DNA of 64,000 nt from Rhodovulum strictum (GTDB lineage: Bacteria > Pseudomonadota > Alphaproteobacteria > Rhodobacterales > Rhodobacteraceae): NCBI RefSeq assembly GCF_009649175.1, contig NZ_WJPO01000008.1, positions 62,001-126,000 on the forward strand, read 5' to 3'. Shown here piece by piece: positions 4,808 to 58,028 of the stretch. The position numbers and the translations under genes were made by a program. Each line of letters starts with the position of its first letter. Position 1 is the first letter of the stretch. The notes under the pieces are model-generated. The model was given only the letters and a program-made list of their open reading frames with translations. It searched no databases and was not told the DNA's origin.

Positions 4808-5986
4808 TCACGCTGCCGCCCGCACCGGGGCTGCCCTGGTTGCCCGGTAATGCGCCTGTGCCGCCGCCACGCCGCTGCCCAGCGTGACCGGAACGCCCAT
4901 ATCCGCCATCGCCATCTCGGCCGTCGCGATCCCCGACAGCGCCAGAACATCGGTCAGCATCCCCAGATGGCCGATGCGGAACACCTTGCCCGCGACCTCG
5001 CCCAGTCCGGCGCCATAGGCCACGCCATAGGCATCGGCCGCGTGCCGACAGAGCGCGTTGCCGTCGATCCCCTCGGGCAGGACGATGGCCGTCACCGAAT
5101 TGGAATAGAGCGCAGGCGCCACCGCGCAAGGCCGCAGCCCCCAGGCCGCAACCGCCTTGCGCACGCCCTCGGCGATGCGGTGATGACGGGCAAAGACGTT
5201 TTCAAGCCCCTCTTCCAGCAGCATGTCGCAGGCCACGCCCAGCCCGTTCAACAGCCCCACCGCAGGGGTATAGGGCGTGCCGAGTTTCAGCATGTCGCGG
5301 AAATCGAAGAAGCAGCGCGACAGCCTGGCCCCCTCCATCGCCGCCAGCGCCCTGGGGCTGACGCCGACAATGGCCAGGCCCACCGGCAGCATGAAGCCCT
5401 TTTGCGAGCCCGCGACCGCCAGATCGACGCCCCATTCCGTCATCCGGAAATCCATCGACCCGATGGAACTGACGCCATCGACCATCAGAAGCGCAGGGTG
5501 CTGCGCCGCATCCAGCGCCCGGCGCACCCCCGCCACATCCGAGACGACACCCGTCGCCGTTTCGTTATGGGTGACCAGAACCGCCTTGATCTCGTGCGCG
5601 GTATCGGCGGCCAGGATCTGGGCGAAGCGCTCGACCGGGGCACCCTCGCCCCAGGGGCAGGTCACGATCTCGACATCCAGGCGATGGCGCTGGCACAGGT
5701 CGATCCATTTCATCGAGAACATGCCATGCCGCGCGGCCAGAACCTTGTCGCCGGGGCTCAGCGTGTTGGTGACGGCGGCCTCCCAGCCGCCGGTGCCCGA
5801 GGCCGGGAACAGGATCACCTCGCCCTCGTCCATCCTGAGCACCCGCTTCACGCCCGCCTTGGCGCGGTCGAACAGCGGCGGAAAGGCGGCCGAGCGGTGG
5901 TCCATCGTGGGAATGTCGCAGGCCCGGCGCAGTGCCTCGGGGATGTTGGTCGGGCCGGGGATGAAGACGGGGTTCTGGCTGGACAT
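4808..5986 (-). CDS. bhcA: L-Aspartate-glyoxylate aminotransferase BhcA (class V)
   Basis: 392 residues; the ATG at 5986 has GGGAGGA just upstream. Class V aminotransferase of the alanine/serine-glyoxylate type: the N-terminal GPTNIPEALR, the SGTGGWEAA cofactor loop at about residues 63-71, the catalytic lysine Lys196 in AGSQKG. It moves the amino group of L-aspartate to glyoxylate, giving oxaloacetate and glycine, and is the first step of the beta-hydroxyaspartate cycle. It is the first gene of the operon, divergent from bhcR, with operator-like inverted repeats between. Generic serine-glyoxylate aminotransferase is the alternative name, but the four-gene context is specific. Confidence 0.92.
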   Translation of the reverse strand: MSSQNPVFIPGPTNIPEALRRACDIPTMDHRSAAFPPLFDRAKAGVKRVLRMDEGEVILFPASGTGGWEAAVTNTLSPGDKVLAARHGMFSMKWIDLCQRHRLDVEIVTCPWGEGAPVERFAQILAADTAHEIKAVLVTHNETATGVVSDVAGVRRALDAAQHPALLMVDGVSSIGSMDFRMTEWGVDLAVAGSQKGFMLPVGLAIVGVSPRALAAMEGARLSRCFFDFRDMLKLGTPYTPAVGLLNGLGVACDMLLEEGLENVFARHHRIAEGVRKAVAAWGLRPCAVAPALYSNSVTAIVLPEGIDGNALCRHAADAYGVAYGAGLGEVAGKVFRIGHLGMLTDVLALSGIATAEMAMADMGVPVTLGSGVAAAQAHYRATRAAPVRAAA

Positions 5987-6043
5987 GCGGTCGATCCTCC
6001 CTGTGTCGCGGCTTGTGGATAGCGCGGGCGGGGTGGGGCGGGC

Positions 6044-6060
6044 AATTTTTTTGAAAAATT
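6044..6060. promoter_or_regulatory. Inverted repeat in the bhcA-bhcR gap (site 1)
   Basis: AATTTTT-TTG-AAAAATT, a perfect 7+3+7 dyad 58 nt before the bhcA start, in an AT-rich island of an otherwise GC-rich region. It is a candidate binding site for BhcR, which is known in Paracoccus to bind the bhc promoter region and respond to glyoxylate. The assignment of this particular dyad is inference. Confidence 0.5.
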
Positions 6061-6067
6061 CATCCGC

Positions 6068-6097
6068 CTGACGAAAAAACACCCAACCCGCTATAAT
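6068..6097 (+). promoter_or_regulatory. Predicted sigma-70 promoter for bhcR
   Basis: CTGACG (6068-6073), an 18-nt spacer and a perfect TATAAT (6092-6097), 75 nt before the bhcR start. It lies between the two inverted repeats, so BhcR bound there could control its own gene as well as bhcA. Confidence 0.5.
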
Positions 6098-6119
6098 TCA
6101 TGCGATTTTTACCTTCCCG

Positions 6120-6142
6120 AAAATGAAAAAACATTTCATTTT
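6120..6142. promoter_or_regulatory. Inverted repeat in the bhcA-bhcR gap (site 2)
   Basis: AAAATGAAA-N5-TTTCATTTT, a perfect 9+5+9 dyad 30 nt before the bhcR ATG and downstream of its predicted promoter. It is the longest dyad in the gap and a good candidate for the IclR-type BhcR operator. Position fits autorepression. Inference from symmetry and context. Confidence 0.58.
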
Positions 6143-6172
6143 GCAGCGCAGCACGCGAAAGGACCGATTCGC

Positions 6173-6988
6173 ATGACCCAGCCCCGGCCCCGCGGCCGCC
6201 CCCGCGCCTTTCATGACAAGACCGACCAGAACACCATCCAGTCGCTAGACCGGGCGATGTCGCTGTTGCGTGCGCTGGCCAAGACCAACGGCCTGACGCT
6301 GAGCGAACTGGCCGACCGCACCGGGCAAAGCGCGGCCACGGTCTACCGCGTTCTGGTCACGCTTCAGGGCCATGAGATCGTCGAGTTCGAGGAGGGCGCC
6401 CAGCGCTGGCATGTGGGCGCAGGCGCGTTCCGCATCGGCTCGGGCTTCCTGCGCCGGGCCAATGTCGCGGAACGCTCGCGCGGGGCGATGCAGGCGCTGA
6501 TGCGCGCGACCGGCGAGACGGCAAATCTGGGCATCGAGAACCGCGACGAGGTGCTGTTTTTGACCCAGGTCGAGACGCATGAGGCGATCCGCGCCTTCTT
6601 TCCGCCCGGCACCCGCAGCCCGATGCATGTCTCGGGGATCGGCAAGGCGCTGCTGGCCTATTACCCCGAGGCGCGGGTGGCGGCCATCGTTGCGGAAAAG
6701 GGGCTGACGGGCTTCACCTCGCTGTCGATCACCTCCGAGGCAAGCCTTGGGCGCGACCTTGCCCGCACGCGGGAACGCGGCTTCGCCATCGACGACCAGG
6801 AACGCGCCGAGGGCATGCGCTGCGTCGCCGCGCCGGTCTTCAACGCTTATGGCGAGCCGGTCGCGGGGCTTTCCGTCTCGGGACCGGCCTTTCGCATGAC
6901 CCTGTCCGAGGCCACCCGGATCGGCCAGGAGGTGCGCCGCGCCGCAGATAGCGTGACGGCGGCCATCGGGGGCACGCCGCCGGGCTGA
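6173..6988 (+). CDS. bhcR: IclR-family regulator of the beta-hydroxyaspartate cycle, BhcR
   Basis: 271 residues. The N-terminal winged helix-turn-helix spans about residues 22-80 (LTLSELADRTGQSAATVYRVL) and the IclR effector domain about residues 95-260, with the SPMHVSGIGKALLAY and CVAAPVFN signatures of the family. It is divergent from bhcA, as in Paracoccus, where BhcR controls the operon and glyoxylate alters its DNA binding (known for that homologue, inferred here). Two strong inverted repeats lie upstream. The ATG at 6173 is followed by a basic tail (PRPRGRPRAFH) before the helix-turn-helix. Confidence 0.9.
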   Translation: MTQPRPRGRPRAFHDKTDQNTIQSLDRAMSLLRALAKTNGLTLSELADRTGQSAATVYRVLVTLQGHEIVEFEEGAQRWHVGAGAFRIGSGFLRRANVAERSRGAMQALMRATGETANLGIENRDEVLFLTQVETHEAIRAFFPPGTRSPMHVSGIGKALLAYYPEARVAAIVAEKGLTGFTSLSITSEASLGRDLARTRERGFAIDDQERAEGMRCVAAPVFNAYGEPVAGLSVSGPAFRMTLSEATRIGQEVRRAADSVTAAIGGTPPG

Positions 6989-20554: not shown

Positions 20555-20878
20555 CTACGCCTTCTCGGGCCGCGTCCTTTGCAGCACCCGTCTATGCGTC
20601 TTGTTATAGCCTATTTCCGGATCGTTCGAACGCAGGGCAATGATGAACTCGGATTCCTTGCGCGAGATCTCTGCCTTGTCGTCGCTTTCAAACAGTATTT
20701 CCTTTCGCAACGAGAAGTCGCGCAACTCCTCAACAGAGAAGTCGGCCTCGACATCCAGCACATTCCAGGAGCCGAAATACCGCAGGGAATGGCCGGGCTC
20801 GCCTATGTCCTTGCCAACATAGATTTTCCCGTTGGGGAAGGAGATTTTATAGACCACATATCGGAGCTTCCGCGGCAT
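20555..20878 (-). CDS. Small GIY-YIG nuclease domain protein
   Basis: 107 residues. The fold is seen in YVVYKISFPNGKIYVGKD (GIY and YIG strands, here VVY and YVG), with the later RKESEFIIAL glutamate helix and GYNKT asparagine. No extra DNA-binding domain is present, so it is a stand-alone nuclease module. By hand count the gene is about 53% GC, well below its neighbours, which suggests transfer. It sits directly downstream of rpoD on the same strand, with a 39-nt gap, and an rpoD-like remnant lies beyond it. Homing-type behaviour is possible but not shown. Confidence 0.75.
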   Translation of the reverse strand: MPRKLRYVVYKISFPNGKIYVGKDIGEPGHSLRYFGSWNVLDVEADFSVEELRDFSLRKEILFESDDKAEISRKESEFIIALRSNDPEIGYNKTHRRVLQRTRPEKA

Positions 20879-54640: not shown

Positions 54641-54669
54641 TTGTCAATCCGGATATGTTCCCTTATTGT
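54641..54669 (+). promoter_or_regulatory. Predicted sigma-70 promoter for the MT-A70 methyltransferase
   Basis: TTGTCA (54641-54646), a 17-nt spacer and TATTGT (54664-54669), 33 nt before the ATG at 54702. It lies in a more AT-rich stretch than the flanks. Confidence 0.55.
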
Positions 54670-54701
54670 TCCAGTTGGAGCATCGGGGGAAATCCGCCAA
54701 T

Positions 54702-55343
54702 ATGTTGGATATGACAATCTCTCCGGCACAAGACCTGCAACGATTTCTGGGCGGCGGCCGGTTCGGCACCGTGCTGGCGGACCCGCCCTGGCGATTCGTC
54801 AACCGCACCGGCAAGGTCGCGCCGGAACATCGCCGCCTGTCGCGCTATCCCACGCTAGAGGTTGACGAGATCTGTGCCCTGCCCGTGGCCGAGCATCTGG
54901 CCGAGCGGGCGCATTGCTACCTGTGGGTGCCGAACGCGCTGTTGCCGCAGGGGTTGCAGGTGCTCTCGGCCTGGGGGTTCGAATACAAGTCGAACATCGT
55001 CTGGCACAAGGTCCGCAAGGATGGCGGCTCGGACGGGCGCGGCGTGGGATTCTATTTCCGCAACGTGACCGAGATCCTTCTGTTCGGCACGCGGGGGCGC
55101 AATGCGCGAACGCTGGATGCAGGGCGGCGGCAGGTCAACATGCTGCAAACCCGCAAGCGTGAACATTCCCGCAAGCCGGACGAGCAATACGACCTGATCG
55201 AAAGCTGTTCCTGGGGCCCCTATCTGGAACTGTTCGGCCGCGGTGTCCGGCAGGGATGGACGGTCTGGGGCAATCAGGCGGACGAGGATTATCGCCCCGA
55301 CTGGGCCACCTACGCCTATAATTCCTCGCTGGCGGCCGAATAG
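54702..55343 (+). CDS. MT-A70 family DNA adenine methyltransferase (restriction-modification partner)
   Basis: 213 residues from ATG at 54702 (an ATG three codons later is also possible). The catalytic DPPW is in VLADPPWRFVNRTG near residue 28; LWVPNALLPQGLQVL near 76 and SNIVWHKVRKDG near 97 are family segments, and ELFGRG near 176 and GWTVWGNQ near 186 are the usual end motifs. MT-A70 enzymes methylate the N6 of adenine. The gene is convergent with, and overlaps by 28 nt, a BglII-like endonuclease gene, so the two are probably a type II pair. Recognition site unknown. Confidence 0.87.
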   Translation: MLDMTISPAQDLQRFLGGGRFGTVLADPPWRFVNRTGKVAPEHRRLSRYPTLEVDEICALPVAEHLAERAHCYLWVPNALLPQGLQVLSAWGFEYKSNIVWHKVRKDGGSDGRGVGFYFRNVTEILLFGTRGRNARTLDAGRRQVNMLQTRKREHSRKPDEQYDLIESCSWGPYLELFGRGVRQGWTVWGNQADEDYRPDWATYAYNSSLAAE

Positions 55344-56074
55344 GGCACGACCGCCGTCAGCGGCAGCCCGATCAGCAGGAGCGGGCACGGGTTCCCCACC
55401 CCGCGCGCAACGCGGTCGGCCAGTTTCGACCAATGCGTGGTCGCCACGCCGAACTTGTCGGCCACGAACTGACGGGCAAAGGCCGACGCAAAGTCCATCC
55501 CCGCATCGACCGCGCGGGCGACCGCCGCGCGCTGGCGCGCGGTCCGGTCCTTCATGCCCATCGCGACCAGCGGCGCCTCTCCGTCGATGCCCGCGCCGCG
55601 CAGAACCCCCTCGACCAGCCCGGGCAGCCCCGCCTGAAGCGCCGCGCCGCGGGTGACGATGATGCCTGCGCTGATGATCGACTGCGCATGCAGCCGCTGG
55701 AAATTCTCAAGGTCGCGGTCAAAGAACGGATCCTTGTTGTTCCATTCGATTTCCAGCGCCAGCGTGCCCGCCGCGCCGCGCCTGATATGGTCGATCTCGT
55801 GGCTGGTGCCGTCGCCCAGCGCCACGCCGTCAACCGTGGTCTCGATGCGGAAATTGTGCTTGCGCCAGCCCAGCGCCGCCAGTTCACGGCGCAGCCGCTG
55901 GGTCGAGCGTGCCTCGCCCCCGCCCGAGGCGATAAGCTCGCCCGCCGGGATCGACACGGCCAGAAGCGCGTCGATCAGTTCCGCCGTCTCGGCCGGGAAA
56001 TCGACGCCGAGGATGGCTTCGGCGTGGTTCTTCACCATCACGTCGAAGCCCGCCTGCCTCAGGCGTGCGAACAT
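55316..56074 (-). CDS. BglII/BstYI-like type II restriction endonuclease
   Basis: 252 residues. The RE_BglII-like core is in about residues 65-130: a conserved Asp in HEIDHIRRG, then LALEIEWNNKDPFFDRDLEN with the E-x-E pair and the WNNKDPF-DRD signature of the family. It should cut DNA at a short palindromic site protected by the convergent MT-A70 methylase. It starts only 4 nt after the aspS stop on the same strand, so it is probably read through from aspS. The gene has no own promoter that I could see. A related non-restriction nuclease is the alternative. Confidence 0.82.
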   Translation of the reverse strand: MFARLRQAGFDVMVKNHAEAILGVDFPAETAELIDALLAVSIPAGELIASGGGEARSTQRLRRELAALGWRKHNFRIETTVDGVALGDGTSHEIDHIRRGAAGTLALEIEWNNKDPFFDRDLENFQRLHAQSIISAGIIVTRGAALQAGLPGLVEGVLRGAGIDGEAPLVAMGMKDRTARQRAAVARAVDAGMDFASAFARQFVADKFGVATTHWSKLADRVARGVGNPCPLLLIGLPLTAVVPYSAASEEL

Positions 56075-56078
56075 CGCC

Positions 56079-58028
56079 TCATTCCTCGGGCGGCAAGACC
56101 CTGAGCCTGAGTTCGCGCAACTGCTCGTTCGTGGGCAGCGTGGGCGCCCCCATCATCAGGTCTTCGGCGCGCTGGTTCATCGGGAACATGATGACCTCGC
56201 GGATGTTCTGCTCGTCCGCCAGCAGCATCACGATCCGGTCGATCCCCGCGGCACAGCCCCCGTGCGGCGGCGGACCGAAGCGGAAGGCGTTGACAAGGCT
56301 GGGGAAGCGGCTGCGCACCTCGTCCTCGGCATAGCCCGCAAGCGCGAAAGCCTTGAACATCACGTCGAGGCGGTGGTTGCGGATCGCGCCCGAGATCAGT
56401 TCATAGCCGTTGCAGGCCAGATCGTACTGATAGCCCAGCACGTCCAGCGGATCGCCCTCCAGCGCCGCCATGCCGCCCTGCGGCATCGAGAACGGGTTGT
56501 GGCTGAAGTCGATGGCGCCGGTTTCCGGGTCCTTCTCGTACATCGGGAAATCGACGATCCAGGCAAAGGCGAAGCGGTCCTTCTCGGTCAGGCCCAGTTC
56601 CTCGCCGATCACGTTGCGCGCGCGGCCCGCTACCGCCTCGAAGGCCGCGGGCTTGCCGCCGAGGAAGAAGGCGGCGTCGCCCTTGCCAAGGCCAAGCTGG
56701 AGGCGGATCGCCTCGGTCCGTTCGGGGCCGATGTTTTTCGCCAGGGGGCCGGCGGCCTCAATCTCGCCAAAGTATGCGTTGGTTAGGAAGTGAACTCTAT
56801 CAAGATCACCTTGATCCAGAGCTTCAAGAATCTTGAGCTTTCCTTCAGCAGCTGCACCTTCAAGTTCTCGATTTTTGAATTTGTCGTAGTCCTCTGCCCC
56901 CACCAAAGCACGCACTACCAAGTTCTCAGTGTCTCCGTCACCGCGCTCACGCCAGAAGATGTAGCCCATCCCCGGCAGCCCTTCCTTCTGGGCAAAGGCG
57001 TTCATCCGGTCGCAGAACTTGCGGCTGCCGCCGCCGGGCGCGGGGATCGCGCGGATCTCGGTGCCGTCCTGCTCCAGCAGCTTGGCGAAGATGGCAAAGC
57101 CCGAGCCGCGGAAATGCTCGGACACGTCCTGCATCCTGATCGGGTTGCGCAGGTCGGGCTTGTCGGTGCCGTACCATTTCGCGGCGTCGGCATAAGAGAT
57201 TTGCGGCCAGTCCTGATCGACCCGGCGGCCATTGCCGAATTCCTCGAAGATGCCCGCGATCACCGGCTGGACGGTGTCGAACACGTCCTGCTGGGTGGCA
57301 AAGCTCATCTCCATGTCGAGCTGGTAGAAATCGGTGGGGCTGCGGTCGGCGCGCGGGTCTTCGTCACGGAAGCACGGCGCGATCTGGAAATAGCGGTCGA
57401 AGCCCGAGACCATGATGAGCTGCTTGAAGATCTGCGGCGCCTGCGGCAGCGCATAGAACCTGCCGGGATGCAGCCGCGAGGGCACGAGGAAGTCGCGCGC
57501 CCCCTCGGGCGAACTGGCGGTGATGATCGGGGTCTGGAATTCGCGAAAGCCCTTGTCCCACATCCGCCGCCGGATGCTGGCCACCACGTCCGAGCGCAGC
57601 TTCATGTTGGCCTGCATGCTGTCGCGGCGCAGGTCGAGGTAACGGTAGCGCAGGCGCGTTTCCTCGGGGTAGTCCTGATCGCCGAAGACCATCAGCGGCA
57701 GCTCCTCGGCTTGGCCCAGCACCTCGACCTCGCGGATGAAGACCTCGATCTCGCCGGTGGGCAGTTTCGGGTTCACCAGGCTTTCATCGCGCGCCTTCAC
57801 CACCCCGTCGACGCGGATGCACCATTCGCTGCGCACCTTTTCCACCGCGGCAAAGGCAGGGCTGTCGCTGTCGGCCAGCACCTGCGTCACGCCGTAATGG
57901 TCGCGCAGGTCGATGAACAGCACGCCGCCATGGTCGCGCACGCGATGCACCCAGCCCGACAGGCGCACGGTTTCGCCGACATTGGCCTTGGTCAGGCCGG
58001 CGCAGGTATGGCTGCGGAACGGGTGCAT
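56079..58028 (-). CDS. aspS: Aspartate-tRNA ligase with an unusual 58-residue insertion
   Basis: 649 residues from ATG at 58028; the usual length is about 590. The N-terminal anticodon-binding domain (1-105) includes [22 protein letters not shown]; class II motif 2 is [21 protein letters not shown] near 215 (in pieces) and motif 3 is [11 protein letters not shown] near 600. The charging enzyme is complete. Inside the GAD insertion domain, residues 366-423 form an extra block between FWRERGDG and [14 protein letters not shown], described separately. It has its own promoter and is followed after 4 nt by a restriction endonuclease gene. Confidence 0.95.
56760..56933 (-). other. Low-GC in-frame insertion within aspS
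   Basis: 174 bp, 58 codons (aspS residues 366-423). By hand, 56761-56940 has 84 of 180 G or C (47%), while flanking 60-base lines at 56641 and 57001 each have 44 of 60 (73%). Codons such as AGA, CGA, GTA, CTA, TTG, AAT, ATT and CTT, rare elsewhere here, are packed together. The peptide is charged and helix-like ([24 protein letters not shown]). An imperfect inverted repeat (AGCTTCAAG-aat-CTTGAGCT) is near 56820-56839, and a weak direct repeat GGxGAxAxTGAG marks both ends. Resembles in-frame palindromic-type insertions known in Rickettsiales, but identity is not established. Confidence 0.7.

Follow-up and report, generated by a model that had tools for sequence, protein, structure and literature searches.

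Aminoacyl-tRNA synthetases are textbook conserved enzymes. Conserved signature indels are found in housekeeping proteins, and diversity-generating retroelements are known for a protein segment that varies at a fixed position. The nearest known concept for the locus described here is that of the segmentally variable genes, in which, according to the available part of the source, a variable segment (at least 70 aa by the criterion applied) lies between conserved parts and is linked to environment, defence and interaction, and among which aminoacyl-tRNA synthetases are counted, with ProRS as an example (PMC387263). The Rickettsia palindromic elements (RPEs) are, in the part of the account available, 105-146 bp long and sit in frame in conserved protein genes of alphaproteobacteria, where they are translated and tolerated (PMC2229807). 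No description of an AspRS cassette site was found in the literature searched (open-licence PMC only).

The window, that is, the whole 64,000-nt stretch of Rhodovulum strictum DNA analysed here, contains an open reading frame (56079-58028) identified as AspRS (Pfam tRNA-synt_2 and OB fold; NCBIfam aspartate--tRNA ligase). The gene, its parts and its neighbours are the following.

54666-55343, plus strand: MT-A70-type DNA methyltransferase gene, convergent neighbour
55316-56074, minus strand: BglII-type restriction endonuclease gene, immediate downstream neighbour of aspS
56079-58028, minus strand: aspS, aspartate--tRNA ligase, 649 aa from ATG, the sole AspRS match in the genome
56736-56759, minus strand: conserved 3' anchor EAAGPLAK (AspRS alignments)
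56760-56948, minus strand: hypervariable cassette, residues 361-423, 63 codons against a 6-aa loop in relatives (alignment with 15 congeners)
56760-56933, minus strand: low-GC core, GC 0.46, GC3 outlier
56769-56804, minus strand: predicted helix at the C-terminal end of the cassette, residues 409-420 (AlphaFold2 model and type A alignment)
56943-57086, minus strand: N-terminal half of the GAD domain (sub-threshold Pfam match to model positions 1-50 of 95), interrupted by the cassette
56949-56963, minus strand: conserved 5' anchor YIFWR (AspRS alignments)

A first, sequence-only reading had pointed to a 174-bp low-GC block lying in frame within aspS, and this was confirmed on the minus strand at 56760-56933, with a GC of 0.46; only about 1 of the 6383 overlapping 174-bp windows of the 64 kb is equally low. 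The length given, 58 codons, needs a small correction: the block is in frame, but the unit that is replaced is slightly bigger, with 63 codons (56760-56948, 48% GC) in place of the six residues of the congeners. The remainder of the gene, put at about 73% GC, was measured at 66%. The lowest 50 codons of aspS, which fall in the block, have a GC3 of 0.36, compared with 0.88 in its remaining codons, and this internal drop is the deepest (rank 1) among 314 genes, crudely called and 150 codons or longer, sampled from 464 kb made up of the window and 20 stretches of 20 kb. The next-deepest drops lie mostly near gene starts and may reflect over-extended starts. Elsewhere in the window, only the stretches 5971-6184 and 20591-20764 have a 174-bp GC of 0.50 or less. 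The Pfam match to the GAD domain (20.0 bits, under the cut-off of 23.4) breaks off at position 50 of the 95-position model, i.e., at the insert.

Sixteen genomes of the genus Rhodovulum were compared, including that of the window (G000). Twelve of their AspRS proteins are 591-592 aa long and have a short loop of six residues (e.g., DGENGM) between YIFWR and EAAGPLAK. The other four carry long inserts of 63 (G000), 75 (G003), 52 (G012) and 70 (G014) residues; their flank proteins are 94.7-97.6% identical, and no pair of the four inserts reaches an E value of 0.01. The alignment of relatives that had been proposed as a check therefore shows 12 of 15 congeners without the block and the remaining three with different inserts. 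Rather than the same 58 residues at normal GC in most relatives, which had been named as the outcome that would count against a foreign block, the loop insert differs in most carrier species. A sequencing or assembly artefact, named for the same reason, is very unlikely because different inserts occupy this residue in other assemblies, and no internal stop is reported in the aspS matches.

Nucleotide differences near the site and far from it were also compared in pairs of genes. In G014 and G012 (L002/L003), 52 of 540 aligned flank nucleotides differ near the insert against 28 of 1230 elsewhere (p = 8e-11, with the near-insert interval picked after inspection of the difference profile), and 16 of the 28 far differences lie in the last 150 nt, adjoining a second swapped site downstream. 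A pair with one long and one short allele (L158/L247) has a difference of 0.143 near the insert and 0.052 far from it. The near/far ratio is 1.01 for 83 short-short pairs (repeated short-loop genomes, e.g., L010/L017 and L012/L018/L180, are retained in these pair counts, in the 278-sequence tree and in the 160 short loci), 0.86-1.6 for the remaining seven long-long pairs and on average 1.68 for two mid-mid pairs. Genes that are otherwise near-identical thus diverge in a tract surrounding the site, clearly in L002/L003 and, as a hint, in L158/L247; exchange by homologous recombination is thus supported by one clear pair, and we infer it for the remainder. We give roughly even chances to the reading that the GAD loop is a surface domain swapped by recombination under diversifying selection, perhaps exerted by an antagonist that binds AspRS. 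This reading takes in the observations of a fixed site, an open frame, a foreign-like composition, incongruence between insert and flank, a scattered distribution, and near-identical hosts with unrelated alleles.

The distribution of the site states was followed in 394 Rhodobacteraceae genomes, about one per genus, 385 of which gave an AspRS match. Most genomes with split or weak AspRS matches were fetched and those with a single match mostly left unread, so that the insert counts are lower bounds: the 106 readable family loci, with G000 and G003 added, comprise at least 48 long inserts (37 aa or more), at least 44 inserts of 30-32 aa and 16 short loops. Five loci were left out of the counts as repeat genomes (L189, L256, L243, L239 and L163), and L245 was left out in part of the analyses. 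The anchor pattern failed in L155, L232, L032, L111, L114 and L115, as well as, in the later analyses, in L070, which was counted by hand in the tally of states; L125 (37 aa) stands outside the 67 long inserts analysed. In Paracoccus, long inserts occur in 12 of 110 AspRS-positive genomes (111 surveyed; all 12 fetched), and the only mutual best pair among these 12 inserts (L305/L309) is 45% alike over 44 residues. A class-wide survey covered 289 genomes, 282 with an AspRS match, of which 12 suspect genomes were searched again; among the matches listed, a lengthened loop was seen at this position in at least two genomes, G541 and G671. Both belong to other alphaproteobacterial families; the loop is a Ser/Gly/Asp-rich, repeat-like stretch in the first (L327) and an Ala-rich stretch in the second (L328). 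A further locus (L324, G457:C11:521000-530200) has two full-length aspS genes on the same contig, separated by about 6 kb, and the loop is short in each.

When the 67 long inserts were compared locally, 47 had a relative among the rest (E of 1e-3 or better) and 20 had none. Type A, with 24 inserts aligned, is the largest group and combines a variable N-terminal half with a C-terminal pattern like I..AL..G...RA.FL..AYFG; in the window, helix 409-420 overlaps the motif FLTNAYFGE, a similar form of which is common to type A inserts. Type B (9 aligned) has a common pattern like SGD.LD...A. For none of the 47 do the best insert relative and the nearest flank relative coincide, so the cassettes appear to move horizontally. 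Furthermore, two loci of one genus (L353/L355) have flank proteins that are 98.1% identical, with a 10% nucleotide difference, and inserts identical at 23 of 86 residues. When the states were mapped on a tree of 278 flank sequences, the long one required 47 Fitch changes on 60 tips, and 200 shuffles gave a mean of 54.8 and a minimum of 48; the count falls just under all of the shuffles, so some inheritance is present. Judged on this single-gene tree, in which long inserts were deliberately over-sampled, the long state is nearly, though not wholly, scattered. The 30-32-aa state, with 27 changes for 63 tips (57.5 in the shuffles), is fairly scattered.

A scattered occurrence, the 20 inserts without relatives, and the low-complexity or Ala-rich longer loops of G541 and G671 outside the family would all fit a neutral tolerance, by which a surface loop now and then accepts foreign or random low-GC DNA that drifts and is then lost. 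However, homologous families whose C-terminal motif is conserved recur at the same residue in distant genera, the cassette has a predicted fold (see below), and the frames are open, although an open frame was required when the long inserts were extracted and is still found in 13%, on average, of position-preserving shuffles. Neutral tolerance is for these reasons considered unlikely.

Among the inserts, that of 30-32 aa (EKTADAVAQELGI.. or KQSADSIAQERGI..) forms the conserved class; it was seen in 44 sampled genera (e.g., L064, L075, L090 and 41 more family loci). Its GC3 is 0.68 against 0.73 for the host (62 loci), and it may be a cassette that has become domesticated. With this spread and composition it resembles a stable, host-adapted module, and the AspRS of Alphaproteobacteria is frequently non-discriminating; both points favour a lineage-specific functional module, i.e., a fast-evolving domain that would tune AspRS, for example in the handling of tRNA-Asn or in contact with GatCAB. 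This explanation is nevertheless quite unlikely, given that the long insert is apparently absent from most of the relatives sampled and that enzymes 95-98% identical bear unrelated domains.

The long inserts differ from their hosts in composition. In the 67 alleles, which are 40-94 aa long with a median of 73 (63 aa in the window), the GC3 is 0.492 against 0.826 for the gene and is lower in all 67, while the mean GC is 0.50 against 0.63 and is lower in 65. Insert GC3 depends weakly on host GC3 (slope 0.29, r 0.35), and its standard deviation is 0.074, compared with 0.059 from sampling alone, in hosts whose GC3 spans 0.50-0.97. The boundaries are fairly sharp, with a dip of 0.04 in flank GC3 within 20 codons, mainly on the 3' side. 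The inserts are almost free of cysteine (seven residues in all) and acidic, with a mean net charge of -5. A few have a host-like overall GC, e.g., L134 and L137; these two type C inserts, from genera whose flanks are 85% alike, are 73% alike over 67 residues and are perhaps long-resident cassettes.

In its own genome, the window insert has no further protein copies (a single match), and the block has one full-length DNA match, the seven others extending over only 14-25 nt; with neither a protein nor a DNA copy elsewhere in the genome, a template-repeat reading was rejected. A targeted diversification that rewrites the loop where it stands, so that its composition lies near 50% GC whatever the host, would suit the low variance of insert GC3 around 0.5 across so wide a range of hosts and the fairly sharp boundaries, but it is highly improbable, as the missing template argues against a diversity-generating retroelement and the differences in length and family, together with relatives in other genera, are better explained by exchange.

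The swapped-domain reading is also consistent with the predicted structure. An AlphaFold2 run on the window AspRS with 37 relatives gave a best model with a mean pLDDT of 72 (58-62 for the other four), in which the cassette is predicted as a folded helical domain: four helices (365-374, 378-385, 392-405 and 409-420; block pLDDT 72-88) sit between strands 355-361 and 423-426. Modelled alone, the insert was poor (pLDDT 61), and Foldseek with that poor model gave no significant PDB match.

Neither a donor of the cassettes nor an antagonist or partner was found in the following searches. Outside aspS, the type A profile gave no convincing match in a survey of 198 genomes or in one of 292 genomes of the order; the 12 hits of the latter survey consist of five new ones between aspS anchors and others at already-known loci. 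Six borderline hits outside aspS (E 0.007-0.009), five of them in open frames of 824-900 aa that resemble one coiled-coil protein and the sixth in another protein, were treated as chance. Tblastn of three inserts against 50,697 phage records and of one insert against 72,556 plasmid records gave E values of 0.9 or worse, and one scan of viral contigs found no viral relative of the window peptide. Type A inserts (against Pfam, PHROGs and PADLOC) and type B inserts (against Pfam) yielded weak single-member hits only. Clustering of neighbouring genes in 19 contexts of inserted loci, which was swamped by antisense ORFs, pointed to no partner gene among the 25 widest clusters.

The RNA fold of the block has a z of -0.75, with 42 of 200 shuffles folding equally well; no long inverted repeat lies within the block, and the inverted pairs listed do not bound it. 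Of the three origins that the sequence-only reading had put forward, the mobile in-frame element was thus rejected, since the cassette is single-copy and without a palindrome, and the type A profile is, in the genomes surveyed, confined to aspS bar weak matches. The horizontally acquired block, with its foreign codon use and flank incongruence, and the new domain both hold at the level of sequence.

The restriction-modification pair beside aspS had been taken as a sign of a transfer hotspot. The pair is real but unlinked to the insert: both genes also adjoin an uninserted aspS in G011 and G007, and neither is found beside the inserted aspS of G003 (L172). An insert belonging to the adjacent restriction-modification system was rejected on the same lack of co-occurrence. 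In G012 (L171) the methyltransferase is present and a DndB/DpdB-like gene with a small hydrophobic protein replaces the endonuclease. The Rhodovulum homologues downstream of aspS (L170-L174) are 58-59% (endonuclease) and 87-92% (methyltransferase) identical to those of the window. The region directly 3' of Rhodovulum aspS looks like a separate site where defence genes are swapped.

Taken together, the site holds a loop of about 6 residues, the conserved insert of 30-32 residues, or one of many domains of 37-94 residues, mostly helix-like and unrelated or distantly related to each other. If the GAD loop is indeed exchanged as proposed, the alleles would pass from species to species through homologous recombination in the conserved flanks of aspS and would come from a shared pool near 50% GC. 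An antagonist recognising the AspRS loop, such as a phage protein, a toxin or a bacteriocin, would drive the turnover, and the domain would block its docking or act as a decoy. When one segment is exchanged rapidly while the rest of the protein is conserved, an adversary that recognises the protein is often the cause, and it is from this that we infer selection by an antagonist. That the turnover is driven by an antagonist recognising AspRS near the loop is plausible, if somewhat short of an even bet. The fuller picture, in which AspRS is a battlefield protein whose GAD loop is the docking site of a widespread antagonist and in which horizontally circulating shield or decoy domains keep being swapped, is put forward tentatively. 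If true, an essential aminoacyl-tRNA synthetase would be behaving like a variable surface antigen, which would indicate an unrecognised conflict targeting AspRS, or domain exchange inside essential genes, and the cassette alleles would be ready baits in a search for binding partners.

Compared with conserved signature indels, the 30-32-aa state resembles a lineage-conserved indel, whereas the long inserts show neither conservation nor restriction to a lineage. The AspRS loop shares with diversity-generating retroelements a variable segment at a fixed position, but no template repeat was found for the cassette, and its variants differ in length and family. Like the RPEs, the cassette is an in-frame insertion in a conserved gene; RPEs, however, are described in the available part of the source as dispersed palindromic repeats in many genes (PMC2229807), and the AspRS cassette occurs once, lacks a palindrome and, within the searches made, is restricted to one site of one gene. 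In the paper on segmentally variable genes the word "aspartyl" does not occur, and no comparable exchange was found described in the available text (PMC387263). AspRS does resemble those genes in having a variable segment of tens of residues in an otherwise conserved gene. In the segmentally variable aminoacyl-tRNA synthetases, as far as the available text goes, the variability goes with tRNA recognition and editing, whereas the AspRS loop differs wholly between near-identical enzymes and has a foreign codon use (PMC387263).
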